Origin: Mycetocola zhadangensis
GTDB taxonomy: Bacteria; Actinomycetota; Actinomycetes; Actinomycetales; Microbacteriaceae
NCBI RefSeq assembly: GCF_003668565.1
Contig: NZ_RCWJ01000004.1
Location: forward strand, 124,001 to 188,000
DNA: 64,000 nucleotides
Direction: 5' to 3'
Below the pieces are notes generated by a model that had not been told where the DNA came from, made no database searches, and was given only the letters and a program-made list of their open reading frames with translations. Shown one piece after another: positions 27,772-54,789 of the stretch. Made by a program: the position numbers and the translations under genes. Numbering within the stretch: the first letter of the stretch is position 1; the number at the start of each line of letters is the position of its first letter.

Positions 27772-28449
27772 ATGTTCGCCTCCCGAAAGCGCCAGCCCGC
27801 GTCGTCGCCTGCGCGCGGAACCCAGATCGCCGACGCGCTGAACATCGTCGGGAACGGCCTGGACACCCTCACAGCGGTTCAGTGGGCGAGCCCGAGCCTG
27901 TGCGAGGGCTGGAGTGTGAAGGACACCATCGCCCACCTGGTCTGGCGGATCGGCACTCCGTCTGTTCGTCTCGCGACCGACATTGTTCGGGCCTCCATCG
28001 CCGGCCGTCATGCCAACCCGATGGAGTCGTTCGACGACATCGCCCGCGGAATCGCCGATTCGGGTGGGACAGATGAGCTGCGTCGCGAGCTCCGCGCGAT
28101 TGCGGTCGAGAAGGCCGAAGGGCACGGTCGATCGAACTCAGGCGAACTGGTCGAGGCCGTTGTGCACGGTTATGACGCGCTGCATCCGCTCGGCATCGTG
28201 CTGCCGTTCTCCTCCGAGACGACACACCAGGTTGCGATGACAAGCGCACTGACGGCGTCACGCGAAGTGCGCTCCCTGCTGCGTCACCGCACGCTGGTCG
28301 CCGCGGACGCCGGCTGGCGGATCGGGCACGGATCGGAGATCATGGCCGATGCGGCGAGTGTCATCCTGTTTCTCAACGGCCGGAAGGCCATGCAGCCGCC
28401 GAGCCGTGTGCGGCTTCTTGCTCCCGCTCCGACCCCTGGGCTCGCCTGA
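27772..28449 (+). CDS. MDMPI/DinB-fold protein (maleylpyruvate isomerase N-terminal family)
   Basis: A 225-residue protein with the four-helix MDMPI N-terminal fold. The family pattern SLCEGWSVKDTIAHLVWR holds the first metal-binding His, and ELVEAVVHGYDA the second His/Asp region. In actinobacteria this family includes mycothiol-dependent isomerases and transferases, so a thiol-linked detoxification role is possible but unproven. The gene converges on ribF, and the 54 bases between them are an 18-bp tandem repeat. Confidence 0.85.
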   Translation: MFASRKRQPASSPARGTQIADALNIVGNGLDTLTAVQWASPSLCEGWSVKDTIAHLVWRIGTPSVRLATDIVRASIAGRHANPMESFDDIARGIADSGGTDELRRELRAIAVEKAEGHGRSNSGELVEAVVHGYDALHPLGIVLPFSSETTHQVAMTSALTASREVRSLLRHRTLVAADAGWRIGHGSEIMADAASVILFLNGRKAMQPPSRVRLLAPAPTPGLA

Positions 28450-28450
28450 A

Positions 28451-28511
28451 CAGCTGAGCAGAGCCGATCAACTGAGCAGAGCCGATCAACTGAGCAGAGC
28501 CGATCAGTTGA
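28451..28511. repeat. 18-bp tandem repeat at the ribF stop codon
   Basis: Three copies of CAACTGAGCAGAGCCGAT (the first with CAGCTG) run from 28451 to 28504 and merge with the 3' end of ribF. Read on the ribF strand, each copy brings TGA back in the same frame. TCAACTGA and TCAGTTGA (28486-28511) also form an 8-bp inverted repeat that may serve as a weak terminator. Confidence 0.85.
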
Positions 28512-29433
28512 GGAGTTGGCGTACCCGCTCGACGTCGTCCGCCATCTGCACGATAAGCGGTTCGATCCCCGTGAATGCCACCATTCCGCGAATCCGCTCG
28601 ACGAATTGCACCTCAACCACCTGGTCGTAGAGGTCGATTTCCCGGTCGAGCACAAACGCCTCGACCTGCTTCTGTGGCACTCCGTCGAATGTGGGGTTGT
28701 TGCCGACCGAGATCGCGGCTGGAAGGCGCTCGGAGCCCACCCGAAGCCAGCCGGCGTACACACCGTCCGCAGGGATGAGCCCGTCAGAGTCGGGTGACAG
28801 GTTCGCCGTCGGGTAGCCGAGTTCGCGCCCTCGCTTCGCGCCGTGCACGACGACACCGCGCACGGATGGATCGTGGCCGAGCAGCTGTGATGCTTCGGAA
28901 ACGCGCCCTTCTGCGAGGAGTTCCCGAATCCAGGTCGACGAGACCCGCCTGCCGTCCTGAGGCGTGACATCCGGAATGATCTCGACGTCGAAACCGTGTT
29001 CTACACCCAGAGAGCGCAAGAGCTCGACGTTACCTGCGCCTCGGTGACCGAAGCGGAAGTCAGTACCGACGAGCACAAGCCGCGCGTTGAGCGCGCCCGA
29101 CAGCATCGTCGTGACGAAGTCCTCGGGTGGAAGCTGCGAGAGCTCGCGGTCGAAGGGAATCAGCAGTGCCGCGTCGATTCCGGTCTCGGCGAGCAGGTCG
29201 AGTTTCTGCTCGTTTCCGACGAGCGCCGGCGGACATTTTTCTGGCGCGAGAAGGGCAAGCGGGTTCCGGTCGAACGTCACGACGACGGACTTCAAGCCGC
29301 GTTCTTTCGCAGCGTCCCGGAGTCGCGTGATCACAGCGCGATGCCCTGCGTGGACACCATCGAACTTGCCGATGGTGACAGCGGTGCCCCCGAAGCCCTC
29401 AGGAACGTCTCCGACCCGTCTGAACGTGATCAC
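28504..29433 (-). CDS. ribF: Bifunctional riboflavin kinase/FAD synthetase
   Basis: A 309-residue enzyme that converts riboflavin to FMN and then FAD. The N-terminal nucleotidyltransferase has GKFDGVHAGHRAV (HxGH motif) and VGTDFRFGHRGAGN; ISSTWIRELL-like and GYPTANL mark the switch to the C-terminal riboflavin kinase. The GTG at 29433 is chosen because it overlaps the stop of the upstream membrane-protein gene (GTGA), although the frame is open further up. It ends the truB operon, as is common in bacteria. Confidence 0.93.
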   Translation of the reverse strand: MITFRRVGDVPEGFGGTAVTIGKFDGVHAGHRAVITRLRDAAKERGLKSVVVTFDRNPLALLAPEKCPPALVGNEQKLDLLAETGIDAALLIPFDRELSQLPPEDFVTTMLSGALNARLVLVGTDFRFGHRGAGNVELLRSLGVEHGFDVEIIPDVTPQDGRRVSSTWIRELLAEGRVSEASQLLGHDPSVRGVVVHGAKRGRELGYPTANLSPDSDGLIPADGVYAGWLRVGSERLPAAISVGNNPTFDGVPQKQVEAFVLDREIDLYDQVVEVQFVERIRGMVAFTGIEPLIVQMADDVERVRQLLN

Positions 29434-45465: not shown

Positions 45466-45602
45466 CACGATGTGACGGTTGGCGCATTGGCACGATGTGA
45501 CGGTTGGCGCATCGGCACGACGTGGTTGGCGCATTGGCACGACGTGACGGTTGGCGCATTGGCACGATGTGACGGTTGGCGCATTGGCACGATGTGACGG
45601 TT
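45466..45602. repeat. 25-bp minisatellite, about 5.5 copies
   Basis: Unit CACGATGTGACGGTTGGCGCATTGG (given here in two parts: CACGATGTGACGG and TTGGCGCATTGG) repeats head to tail at 45466, 45491, 45516, 45538 and 45563, with a partial copy to 45602. The third copy lacks three bases. There are no spacers, so it is not a CRISPR array. Confidence 0.93.
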
Positions 45603-49067: not shown

Positions 49068-49202
49068 ACCCAAACCCAACCGCTCAGCTCGGGTCCATCG
49101 CAGCGCCCTGACCCAACAGCTCAGCCTGGATCCAGAGCCAGCGCCCTAACCCAACCGCTCAGCCTGGGTCCAGAGCGAGTGCCCTAACCCAACCGCTCAG
49201 CC
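49068..49202. repeat. 38-bp tandem repeat including the stop of the S9 peptidase gene
   Basis: Full copies start at 49068, 49106 and 49144; a partial copy at 49182-49202 is the 3' end of the peptidase gene. The shared core is CCAACCGCTCAGCC, which codes for the last residues AERLG and the stop on the minus strand. A degenerate copy may precede at 49030. Confidence 0.85.
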
Positions 49203-51235
49203 AGGAAGCGGTACGCCAACGCCGACATGTGCGCCGCCTGAGCGTTCGTCGCCGCTCCCCCGTGCCCACCCTCAATGTTCTCGAAGTAGGTCACATCCTT
49301 GCCCGCGTCGATCATCCGCGCCGCGAGCTTGCGAGCATGACCGGGATGTACCCGATCGTCACGCGTCGATGTGGTGAACAGCACAGGCGGATACTCCCGC
49401 TTCGGATCGAACAGGTGATACGGCGAAAAGGTTCGCAAAAACTCCCAGTCGGCCGGATCGTCCGGATCGCCATACTCCGCAATCCACGACGCACCAGCAA
49501 GCAGATACGAATACCGCTTCATATCGAGCAACGGCACCTGAATGATCACAGCACCAAACAGCTCCGGATACTGCGCGAGCATGTTTCCGGTGAGCAGACC
49601 GCCGTTCGATCCACCCTGAATTCCCAAATGCGAAGCGGATGTCACGCCACGCGTAACGAGATCGCGAGCGACTGCAGCGAAATCCTCAAATGCCCGATGC
49701 CGATTCTCCCTGAGCGCCGCCTGGTGCCAGATCGGCCCATACTCTCCACCACCGCGGATATTGGCAACAACATAGACACCACCCTGCTTCAGCCACGCCA
49801 AACCGAGCGAACCCGAATAACCGGGCGTAAGCGAGACCTCAAACCCGCCATAGCCATACAGGAGTGTGCGCGCTGTGCCGTCGAACGGCAGGTCCTCCCT
49901 GCGCACAACGAAGTACGGAACACGAGTGCCGTCATCCGACCGGGCAAAGTACTGCTCGATGGTGAGACCAGCCGCATCAAAAAACGCCGGCTGGCTCTTG
50001 AGCTCCTCGGGTTGCCCGGCCGCCGCGCCGACCGCTGCTCCGACCACCGCTAGGGACAGGGTGGTCGGCGTGAGATAGTCGGTCGCGATCAGCCAGACCA
50101 GGTCACTCTCGTCGGTGTCGACCGCAGCGACCTGAACCGTACCAAATTCGGGAGCGCCAGCGAATTCGTTTCGCTGCCACGTGGCATCCGCTCGCTCTAA
50201 GACGTGGATACGACTCTTCACGTCCTCAAGAACTGTGATCACCAGGTGGTTGCGCGTCCACGTCGCACCGGCAAGGGAGGTCGTCGGCGTCGGCTCGAAC
50301 ACCACCTCGACCCTCCGGTCACCGGCAACAAAGGCATCAAAATTGGCCGAGAGGAGCGATCCGGCCGCATATGTTGCGCCGTTCAGTTCCCAGTCGTTCC
50401 GCAGCTCGATGAGGAGCCATTCGCGAGAGAACCCGATTTCAGCGGATGCCGGCACATCGATTTTCGTCAGCGTCCCGTCGACGTCGACCCACGTGTCAGA
50501 CGTGTAGAAGGTGGTCGCCCGATGGACGAAGTCACGGAGATACCCCGGTGTGTGACTGCGGAACGCACCGACCGAAACGTCAGTCGTCTTCCCCTCGAAA
50601 ACCACCTCGGCAGAGTCGATCGGTGTGCCCCTCCTCCACCGCTTCGCGATACGAGGGTAACCGGAGGAGGTCGCTGACCCCTCACCCTGAGCAGAGCACA
50701 GGTAGACGGTGTCGTCATCGATCCAGCCGAGGCTCCCCTTCGACTCGGGCCGGAAGAACCCGCCGTCCTCCGGTTCGACAAAGCTCAAGGTCTCCAGGTC
50801 AAACTCACGTGTCACATCGGCATCTGACCCACCGTGTGAGAGGTCAATGAGTGCTTTGCGGTATCCCGGTCGCAACACAGAGGCACCGTGCCACACCCAG
50901 TTTTCTCCCTCGGCAGCGTTGAGCGCATCGAGATCGAGCACCGTCTGCCACTCGGGGTCGACCGCGCGGTATTGCTCAAGCGTCGTCCGCCGCCACAGTC
51001 CACGCTCGTGCTCGGCGTCTCGCCAGAAGTTGTAGTAGAACTCGCCGATCTTCTGCACCATGGGAATCTTCGCGTCAGAGTCGAGGACCGAAAGCACCGC
51101 CGCCTCGGTTTGAGCGAACTCAGGCGTTGCCGCAAGGGTGGCTTCGGTGACCGCATTTCGAGCGCGTACCCAGTCGAGAGCGGCTCCCCCGTCCACATTC
51201 TCGAGCCAGGAATACGGATCGGGGGCTTCAGTCAC
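49184..51235 (-). CDS. Prolyl oligopeptidase family protein (S9)
   Basis: A 683-residue serine peptidase: an N-terminal beta-propeller and a C-terminal hydrolase domain with the nucleophile in GGSNGGLL, the Asp in TSTRDDRVHPGH and the His in IEGGHGGAA. The family cuts short proline-containing peptides. The frame is open to a GTG at 51292, but the GTG at 51235, seven bases after TAGGCT, gives the usual N-terminus (EAPDPYSWLENV). Its last codons are inside a tandem repeat. Confidence 0.9.
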   Translation of the reverse strand: MTEAPDPYSWLENVDGGAALDWVRARNAVTEATLAATPEFAQTEAAVLSVLDSDAKIPMVQKIGEFYYNFWRDAEHERGLWRRTTLEQYRAVDPEWQTVLDLDALNAAEGENWVWHGASVLRPGYRKALIDLSHGGSDADVTREFDLETLSFVEPEDGGFFRPESKGSLGWIDDDTVYLCSAQGEGSATSSGYPRIAKRWRRGTPIDSAEVVFEGKTTDVSVGAFRSHTPGYLRDFVHRATTFYTSDTWVDVDGTLTKIDVPASAEIGFSREWLLIELRNDWELNGATYAAGSLLSANFDAFVAGDRRVEVVFEPTPTTSLAGATWTRNHLVITVLEDVKSRIHVLERADATWQRNEFAGAPEFGTVQVAAVDTDESDLVWLIATDYLTPTTLSLAVVGAAVGAAAGQPEELKSQPAFFDAAGLTIEQYFARSDDGTRVPYFVVRREDLPFDGTARTLLYGYGGFEVSLTPGYSGSLGLAWLKQGGVYVVANIRGGGEYGPIWHQAALRENRHRAFEDFAAVARDLVTRGVTSASHLGIQGGSNGGLLTGNMLAQYPELFGAVIIQVPLLDMKRYSYLLAGASWIAEYGDPDDPADWEFLRTFSPYHLFDPKREYPPVLFTTSTRDDRVHPGHARKLAARMIDAGKDVTYFENIEGGHGGAATNAQAAHMSALAYRFLAERLG

Positions 51236-52712: not shown

Positions 52713-53180
52713 ATGCCAACGCCCGATTTTGTCCTTGCCCTCCGCGAAAAGATCGGAACAGCCCCACTGTGGTTGTCCGGAGTGACAGCGGTCGTTGTCA
52801 AAGGCAACCACATTCTCCTCGTCCGCCGCACCGACACCGGCGAGTGGACACCGGTGACGGGCATCATCGACCCAGGTGAGCAACCGGCAACAGCTGCATT
52901 GCGTGAGGTCGAAGAAGAAGCGGATGTCATTGCCACCGTCGAGCGCCTCGTCCGGGTGAGCGTCACGAACCCTGTGATCTACCCGAACGGTGACGAGAGC
53001 CAGTACCTCGACCTCGTCTTCCGGCTGCGTTATGAGTCAGGCATCCCCTCACCAGCCGACGGTGAGAACACCCACGCCGAATGGTTCGCGATCGAGAACC
53101 TGCCCGCCATGTCGGACGACATGCGCGAACGGGTCCGAGCCGCCCTCGACAACAAGCCCGAGGCTGAATTTTTGGTTTGA
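52713..53180 (+). CDS. NUDIX hydrolase
   Basis: A 155-residue NUDIX-fold protein that should cleave a nucleoside diphosphate-linked compound. The NUDIX box runs from Gly50 (GIIDPGEQPATAALREVEEEA), with the metal-binding REVEEE at 64-69; the Gly that normally follows EE in the box is Ala here, a tolerated change. Substrate is unknown. It sits directly after the decarboxylase gene, with its promoter overlapping that gene's stop. Confidence 0.88.
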   Translation: MPTPDFVLALREKIGTAPLWLSGVTAVVVKGNHILLVRRTDTGEWTPVTGIIDPGEQPATAALREVEEEADVIATVERLVRVSVTNPVIYPNGDESQYLDLVFRLRYESGIPSPADGENTHAEWFAIENLPAMSDDMRERVRAALDNKPEAEFLV

Positions 53181-53283: not shown

Positions 53284-53556
53284 ATGTGCAGGAACATTCA
53301 CCAGCTCCACAACTTTGAACCGGAAGCGACAGAAGACGAGGTGCACGCCGCTGCCCTGCAGTTTGTGCGGAAGGTGAGCGGGTCGACCAAGCCGTCCAAG
53401 GCGAACGCCGAGGTCTTCGATCGCGCCGTTCTCGAGATCGCCCACGCTACAAGGCACCTCCTCGAAGACCTCGTGACGACAGCACCCCCGAAAGACCGTG
53501 ACATCGAGGCGGCAAAGGCCAGGGAGCGGTCGGCCAAACGATTCGCAACGGCCTGA
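53284..53556 (+). CDS. DUF2277 family protein
   Basis: A 90-residue protein that matches the DUF2277 family along its length: the MCRNIHQLHNFEP start, AALQFVRKVSG, SKANAEVFDRAV and a helical end. Function is unknown; the conserved Cys/Arg/Asn/His start suggests a metal or cofactor role. The ATG before CRN has GAGG six bases upstream, so I do not use the in-frame ATG four codons earlier. Confidence 0.85.
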   Translation: MCRNIHQLHNFEPEATEDEVHAAALQFVRKVSGSTKPSKANAEVFDRAVLEIAHATRHLLEDLVTTAPPKDRDIEAAKARERSAKRFATA

Positions 53557-53570
53557 CCTCGCCGCTTTCT

Positions 53571-53690
53571 GCGTTCAGCACGTCCCGGTTCAGTGCATCC
53601 CAGTTCAGTGCGCCCCGGTTCAGTGCATCCCGGTTCAGTGCTGCCCGGTTCAGTGCATCCCGGTTCAGTGCTGCCCGGTTCAGTGCTGCC
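53571..53690. repeat. 15-bp tandem repeat, eight copies, at the SHOCT gene stop
   Basis: Eight consecutive units of CGGTTCAGTGCATCC and variants (CTGCC, CGCCC endings). The seventh and eighth units contain the end of the minus-strand SHOCT gene. Each unit, read on the minus strand, carries CACTGA in the same frame, so a stop codon recurs every five codons. Confidence 0.93.
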
Positions 53691-53991
53691 GCGGATCCGG
53701 ATTGTTCGTTCGGATCACCTCGAGCCGCGCACGGTACTCGGTCTCGTCGATGTCACCGTGAGCGAACCGCTGCGCGAGGGTGGCTTCAGCGCTTCGGCCT
53801 GCGGACTGCGCCATCACCCACGGCGGTGATGACCGCCGCCAGCGGCGCCCGAGAACGACGAACAGCAGCACGAAGACCGTGATCCAGAACAGCGGAATCA
53901 GAACGAACAACCAGCCGAAGCCAGGACCCCCGCCCCAGCCAGGGTGCAACTGGAGCGCGGTGCTTGCGGTCGAGGTGAGTGTGGAAAGCAT
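53680..53991 (-). CDS. Membrane-anchored SHOCT-domain protein
   Basis: A 103-residue protein with one strong membrane helix (about residues 25-48, GFGWLFVLIPLFWITVFVLLF core) after a short Thr/Ser-rich start, then a basic stop-transfer (GRRWRRS), and a C-terminal SHOCT motif (LAQRFAHGDIDETEYRARLEVI). SHOCT is a small helical-hairpin domain, often with oligomerising roles. I chose the ATG at 53991; a TTG 48 bases upstream is also open. The stop codon lies inside a 15-bp repeat array. Confidence 0.8.
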   Translation of the reverse strand: MLSTLTSTASTALQLHPGWGGGPGFGWLFVLIPLFWITVFVLLFVVLGRRWRRSSPPWVMAQSAGRSAEATLAQRFAHGDIDETEYRARLEVIRTNNPDPRQH

Positions 53992-54120: not shown

Positions 54121-54789
54121 TTAGGCCGTAAAGCCCGGTGTCACCAGCCCGCTCTCGTACGCAAGCACAACCAATTGCACCCGATCACGCGCGCCCAGCT
54201 TGGTGAGGATCCGGGACACGTGCGTCTTTGCGGTCAACGGACTAAGAAACAGCCGCGCCCCGATCTCATCGTTACTGAGCCCGGCCGCAACAAGAACCAT
54301 CACCTCGCGTTCCCGATCGGTGAGTTCGACGAGCCCGGCGACCGGTTGCGGCGCCACCAGCCCGTTGGAGATGCGCTCAAGCAGCCGCCGCGTCACACTC
54401 GGAGACAGCAACGCGTCGCCAGCAGCAGCCACCCGCACCGACCGAATCAGCTCAACCGGCTCGGTGTCCTTCACCAGGAAACCGCTCGCCCCAGCGGCGA
54501 TCGCCTGCGCCACGTACTCGTCCAGCTCGAACGTCGTCACCACAACGATGTGGGTCTCCGCAAGTTCGGGTGCCGCGGTGATCTGCTCGGTCGCCCAGAG
54601 CCCGTCCCCTCCTGGCATTCGAATGTCCATCAACACGACATCGGGACGTTCCTCGCGAACTGAGGCGACAGCATCCGCCCCCGTCGCAGCCTCACCGACA
54701 ACCCCGATGTCAGCTTCAGCCTCGAGGAGTGCCCGGAATCCCGCTCGAATCAGCTGCTGGTCATCGGCAAGGACGACCCGGATCGTCAC
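54121..54789 (-). CDS. LuxR/NarL-family response regulator
   Basis: A 222-residue response regulator. The receiver has the acidic pair near residue 9 (LADDQQ), the phosphorylated Asp55 in LMDIRMPGGDG, a Thr switch and Lys in FLVKD. The C-terminal LuxR HTH is LTDREREVMVLVAAGLSNDEIG with the recognition segment AKTHVSRILTKL. Its ATG overlaps the stop of the histidine kinase gene by four bases, so they form a two-component pair. Target genes are unknown. Confidence 0.93.
   Translation of the reverse strand: MTIRVVLADDQQLIRAGFRALLEAEADIGVVGEAATGADAVASVREERPDVVLMDIRMPGGDGLWATEQITAAPELAETHIVVVTTFELDEYVAQAIAAGASGFLVKDTEPVELIRSVRVAAAGDALLSPSVTRRLLERISNGLVAPQPVAGLVELTDREREVMVLVAAGLSNDEIGARLFLSPLTAKTHVSRILTKLGARDRVQLVVLAYESGLVTPGFTA

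Follow-up and report, generated by a model that had tools for sequence, protein, structure and literature searches.

The question raised by this locus is why the stop codon of a SHOCT-like gene recurs, in frame, throughout the gap to its convergent neighbour, a DUF2277 gene. A first reading made from sequence alone (the sequence-only reading) had offered neutral slippage, a safeguard at the 3′ end and a convergent-transcription buffer as explanations. The locus was analysed within a stretch of 64 kb (the window; Table 1). The gap between the two genes measured 123 bp, 105 bp of which was a 15-bp tandem array.

Table 1. Coordinates of the array, its neighbours and other repeats. Positions refer to the window, except those prefixed with a contig label (C2, C3, C5), which refer to the same genome.
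Feature	Position	Strand	Remark
NUDIX domain protein	52713–53180	+	upstream of DUF2277
DUF2277 protein, 90 aa	53284–53556	+	Pfam E 2.7e-38; convergent neighbour of SHOCT
Seven 15-bp repeat units	53575–53679	−	past the SHOCT stop; consensus ACCGGGNNGCACTGA, in-frame TGA in each
SHOCT last five codons, CCG CGG CAG CAC TGA	53680–53694	−	likely seed unit
SHOCT-like protein, 119 aa	53680–54039	−	weak C-terminal SHOCT match
Response-regulator-like ORF	54121–54789	−	upstream of SHOCT; name based on the translated sequence
Two ORFs running through the array	53498–53761, 53593–53829	+	from the ORF list
Perfect array, 18 bp × 2.9	28454–28506		second stop-repeating example; most of a 54-bp convergent gap
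MDMPI_N-domain gene	27772–28449	+	flanks the 18-bp array
Riboflavin kinase/FAD synthetase gene	28504–29295	−	flanks the 18-bp array
Noncoding array, 25 bp × 5.6	45466–45602		inside an 880-bp gap called convergent
Noncoding array, 38 bp × 3.7	49069–49206		over the 3′ end of the gene starting at 49184 (−)
Dispersed element of ~30 bp, example sites	C2:310275–310353, C3:311762–311840, C5:54318–54426, C3:103493–103582		own genome

TRF confirmed that the SHOCT gene ends in a 15-bp array, with scores of 159 (53583–53686, period 15, 6.9 copies) and 179 (53573–53686, period 30, 3.8 copies). The 30-bp period was the top-scoring one, and it went together with an alternation of CAG- and ATG-bearing versions in the first four units. 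When the window was simulated 60 times with a first-order Markov model, TRF scores reached 72 at most. The array had the beyond-chance, head-to-tail units (roughly 10–100 bp) that characterise a minisatellite or VNTR. It lay within the span given by the sequence-only reading (53571–53690), which reached a few bases too far towards DUF2277. As had been proposed, a ribosome reading through would meet a new in-frame stop every five codons: the SHOCT frame held eight TGAs, the gene's own and seven beyond it. The accompanying claim that each unit restores CAC TGA was accurate for TGA in all eight cases and for CAC in seven, the outermost unit having TGC TGA. Among the seven units compared, 10 of the 15 columns were invariant, TGA included. 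The chance of all three TGA columns being among the invariant ones was 0.26, and TGA was conserved no more strongly than the remainder of the unit.

The flanking genes had been named correctly. The DUF2277 assignment was strong (Table 1), whereas the SHOCT match (Pfam E 1.8e-4, 21.6 bits) was weak, falling below the curated (gathering) cut-off of 27. The translation of the SHOCT-like protein contains a putative hydrophobic stretch. Neither protein had a match in NCBIfam. A distant plasmid search matched 19 records, and among the matches listed (10 of the 19) only the DUF2277 part was covered.

The distribution of the array was compared among relatives, with one genome per species. The genus comprised six genomes, the one carrying the array (G000) and five congeners (G001–G005), and all six matched the query region. 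The convergent DUF2277–SHOCT pair was kept in G004, G002 and G001, with gaps of 62, 60 and 26 bp, respectively. In G003 and G005 the match was limited to the DUF2277 part, and no SHOCT ORF followed DUF2277. The array of G000 was absent from all five congeners; it thus varied between related genomes, the orthologous gaps of G001, G002 and G004 lacking it. The sequence-only reading had looked to related strains for an array at this gene, and the three congeners with the pair gave a divided answer: the same array was absent, and an unrelated one was present in G002. This was an unrelated-looking 15-bp × 2.6 repeat, starting 2 bp past the SHOCT stop and containing no in-frame stop. A common origin with the G000 array was rejected by eye, as the units are unlike each other. 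At a TRF threshold of 60, the SHOCT stop carried an array in none of 54 named relatives, and in two of them different arrays began 128 and 174 bp downstream of it. A scan of 398 genomes of the family, drawn from a larger group, for the repeat pattern at up to 2 mismatches found any match in six genomes, seven in G000 and one each, with 2 mismatches, in five others (reversed control, one). The pattern was never present as an array in the 397 other genomes.

The end of the SHOCT gene was at an equal position in G000 (PDPRQH) and G002 (PDPRQN); the stop position therefore looks old and the array new. Within the last five codons, CCGCGGCAG was common to G000 and the G002 orthologue. These codons equalled the next repeat unit in 12 of 15 bases (CCGCGGCAGCACTGA compared with ACCGGGCAGCACTGA), which makes the end of the gene the likely seed. 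The stops of the array look like hitchhikers of a unit that resembles the last SHOCT codons plus the stop.

We consider it probable, at roughly 0.8, that the array is a young minisatellite formed by slippage, that its in-frame stops are a by-product and that it persists neutrally between convergent 3′ ends. A 15-bp segment spanning the last SHOCT codons and the stop codon would have been tandemly duplicated through replication slippage, and the array would then have expanded further, in part by 30-bp steps. Each copy would restore an in-frame TGA, since the stop was part of the copied segment and a length of 15 bp preserves the reading frame; the repeated TGA would be a one-in-three accident of unit length and no selected safeguard. 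The array would survive because the 3′ ends of convergent genes hold no promoter or ribosome-binding site that it could harm. Three elements of this account are inferred: that slippage was at work, that it proceeded from the gene end, and that the array is neutral. The direct mark of slippage would be a copy number varying among strains. Like bacterial minisatellites or VNTRs, the array consists of head-to-tail 15-bp units in an intergenic position and is missing from related species, and its few substitutions and alternating variants are those that slippage and unequal exchange predict. Unlike them, its unit takes in the last codons and the stop of a neighbouring gene and multiplies that stop in frame. 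Most tandem repeats of Burkholderia pseudomallei lie between genes, and those within coding sequence mostly have multiple-of-three units, according to the accessible part of the report (PMC1853098). The locus most likely represents an ordinary, apparently young, single-locus minisatellite seeded from the gene's own 3′ end, and of the three explanations first offered neutral slippage was the best supported. The array itself matters little; it shows that a repeated stop codon can arise without selection for stops.

The position of arrays with respect to gene orientation was non-random. We sampled 864 kb of G000, 1.2 Mb of four congeners (G001, G002, G004 and G005) and, from two further genera of the family, 0.8 Mb (G010 and G011). 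Arrays were detected with TRF (score at least 60, period at least 6), and genes were called with our own small interpolated Markov caller, which recovered SHOCT and DUF2277. The G001, G004 and G005 samples were one contig each, and the contigs or stretches of the four congeners, like the window, had been chosen to include the orthologous locus. Across the five genomes of the genus, convergent gaps held 26 of the 48 noncoding arrays but 18.7% of the gap bases (P = 4e-8). An array was present in 26 of 302 convergent gaps compared with 18 of 1530 other gaps (P = 1e-10), or in 25 of 302 when the DUF2277–SHOCT array was left out (P = 4e-10). The convergent share was 12/20 in G000 (P = 0.00015), 6/10 in G002 (P = 0.004), 4/9 in G004 (P = 0.07), 3/7 in G005 (P = 0.13) and 1/2 in G001 (P = 0.16). 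Outside the genus, the trend was shared by G011 (10/25, P = 0.004) and not by G010 (0/6). At a TRF cut-off of 90 the genus trend remained (G000, 9/15, P = 0.001; G002, 4/6, P = 0.012; G005, 2/2, P = 0.036; G001, 1/1, P = 0.085); it was weaker in G004 (2/6, P = 0.31) and G011 (4/11, P = 0.087), and G010 had 0/2. Pooled over the seven genomes, the convergent excess was present in every length class examined, with arrays in 8/124 convergent compared with 3/552 other gaps of 30–100 bp, 6/52 compared with 8/453 at 100–200 bp, 12/41 compared with 11/244 at 200–400 bp and 8/36 compared with 15/104 at 400–2000 bp. The loci of the 54 named relatives showed the same direction weakly (3/41 convergent and 5/238 other gaps, P = 0.10).

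The density of noncoding arrays decreased from convergent (36 in 53.1 kb) over codirectional (35 in 158.4 kb) to divergent gaps (8 in 87.8 kb), and 22 of the 35 arrays in codirectional gaps lay nearer the 3′ end of a gene. Both the order of densities and the lean towards 3′ ends are as expected if promoters exclude arrays. The convergent placement thus most likely reflects neutral slippage tolerated where no promoter exists. One contrast speaks against this reading: in gaps of 200–400 bp, arrays were present in 12/41 convergent compared with 8/134 codirectional cases, more than is predicted by a model in which half of a codirectional gap is promoter-free. The random position of similar arrays, which the sequence-only reading had named as part of the outcome that would speak against it, was not what we found, as noncoding arrays favoured convergent gaps. 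The general placement of arrays is more useful, and deserves more attention, than the array itself. Where noncoding minisatellites build up in these actinobacteria is strongly dependent on how the genes are oriented, and this opens to testing whether repeats are generated, tolerated or used by convergent transcription. In a limited literature search we found nothing, among the matches listed, on tandem arrays in convergent bacterial gaps; REP elements came nearest.

Two proposals would assign a role to this placement. In the first, unrelated minisatellites recur at convergent meeting points in the genus and in at least one related genus, often starting on a stop, and replace hairpin terminators as polymerase-collision zones, whether acting or generated. 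We regard this as doubtful; if true, the unit sequence would be free and the array position constrained. In the second, which we consider unlikely, the array at this locus is a bidirectional terminator or collision buffer at which converging RNA polymerases pause, terminate or shed supercoiling, with arrays replacing hairpin terminators in the genus. The concentration of arrays in convergent gaps favours such a role, and so does a comparison of hairpins in convergent gaps of 40–420 bp. The median minimum hairpin z was −1.27 in 20 gaps with an array and −3.67 in 124 array-free gaps (P = 0.0014), and z was below −3 in 5/20 and 67/124 of them, respectively (P = 0.03). These weaker hairpins could hint at a substituted role. 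However, the contrast was not significant at z below −2 (9/20 compared with 75/124, P = 0.23) or −1.5 (P = 0.08), and it was significant in one of three length classes (80–150 bp, 3 compared with 40 gaps). Within the first 70 nt past the stop, z was below −2 at 5/52 ends of array gaps and at 111/286 ends of other gaps, a contrast that includes the array itself, which fills much of these 70 nt, so that the whole-gap test is preferred.

At the DUF2277–SHOCT locus, a moderate hairpin was present in G001 (z −2.1 and −1.8), and G000 and G002 had repeats and no hairpin, as a substitution would predict, but G004 had neither array nor hairpin. The fold of the G000 array was at most slightly better than that of shuffled sequences (it was equalled or bettered by 16 of 200 shuffles on one strand and by 9 on the other), and its local-window fold z was +0.3 and +1.2. 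A terminator scan detected no site in the gap, that is, no GC-rich hairpin followed by a T-run; the two terminator-like sites that it did detect lay at 53911–53932, inside SHOCT. The shuffled folds, the local z and the terminator scan led us to reject a terminator hairpin in the array. A Rho-type bias of C over G was not seen in array gaps, which did not differ in this skew (P = 0.94). Of the convergent-transcription buffer suggested by the sequence-only reading, the concentration of arrays in convergent gaps stands, but location bias by itself is no demonstration of function.

The neutral slippage reading treats the repeated stops as incidental, whereas they could also have been selected as a fail-safe translation terminator that halts ribosomes running past a leaky first TGA. 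Besides the eight TGAs in one frame, there is the 18-bp array of the window, where the riboflavin kinase/FAD synthetase gene has its TGA restored at codons +6 and +12 of its frame. Of the 79 noncoding arrays in the seven genomes, 42 had a period divisible by three, above one third (P = 0.0002). This excess may stem from peaks at 15 and 30 bp and from coding arrays missed by the caller; the period was a multiple of three in 131 of 137 coding arrays. By individual period, 15 bp accounted for 9 of the 79 noncoding arrays, 30–31 bp for 16 and 21 bp for one. Four tests lent the fail-safe explanation no support, and we judge it very unlikely. In none of the relatives examined did we find the 15-bp stop array. 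Within 40 codons past the SHOCT stop, 34 of the 54 named relatives had no in-frame stop, 17 had one and three had two. Noncoding arrays overlapping a stop in the seven sampled genomes had a period divisible by three in 5 of 13 cases (P = 0.45 compared with one third); in four of these five, namely the 15-bp array, the 18-bp array of the window, one in G002 and one in G011, the stop recurred in frame at the array period. In a third test, the TGA columns were no better conserved than others. A selected stop array would show extra conservation of its stops or a preference for frame-preserving periods; neither was observed, and the 3′-end safeguard of the sequence-only reading was not supported.

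The array resembles additional (tandem) 3′ stop codons in giving extra in-frame stops past the primary stop. Unlike it, such stops, as studied within a few codons of the primary stop, are not described as repeat arrays. In yeasts, extra stops have reportedly been studied at the third codon past the stop. A single extra stop would presumably be enough, seven adding almost nothing. The fourth of the tests was a published survey: in 644 eubacterial genomes, additional in-frame stops at codons +1 to +6 were avoided and not enriched, with Z > 0 in 13 of the 644, according to its accessible text (PMC6764699).

It is also highly improbable that the array belongs to a dispersed mobile or REP-like family inserted at the gene end. 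The genome does carry a dispersed ~30-bp element, arranged both tandemly and as inverted pairs, but its core had no match in the window. At up to 3 mismatches, the two-unit pattern had six matches in the own genome, every one inside the array and none at the further loci expected of a MIRU-like dispersed repeat, and the unit is similar to the 3′ end of the preceding gene. MIRUs are repeats at gene edges in an actinobacterium, a setting that the array shares. In their accessible description (PMC12548453), MIRUs are apparently mobile and insert at start codons, where an ORF is coupled to the gene. For the array unit, by contrast, a single locus was detected, and it lies at a convergent 3′ end. 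REP elements are frequent between convergent genes, for which reasoning similar to promoter exclusion has been given (PMC1525189, accessible part). REPs and BIMEs are dispersed palindromes with a stable hairpin, however, and the two-unit pattern of the array is neither dispersed nor forms such a hairpin. An assembly artefact with a wrong copy number has next to no likelihood, for although tandem repeats are a known cause of assembly errors (PMC6868369, accessible part), the array is short (about 105–120 bp), and substitutions set its units apart, which should help assembly.

The ~30-bp dispersed element of G000 is REP-like, with the core CCCTTTGGGCCGACTCGAT, and example sites are given in Table 1. 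At up to 3 mismatches the core had 27 matches in the own genome, compared with none for the reversed control, and the members of inverted pairs started 41–101 bp apart. Judged by eye, the array units of G001 and G005 had cores like CCCTTTGGGCCGACTCGAT.
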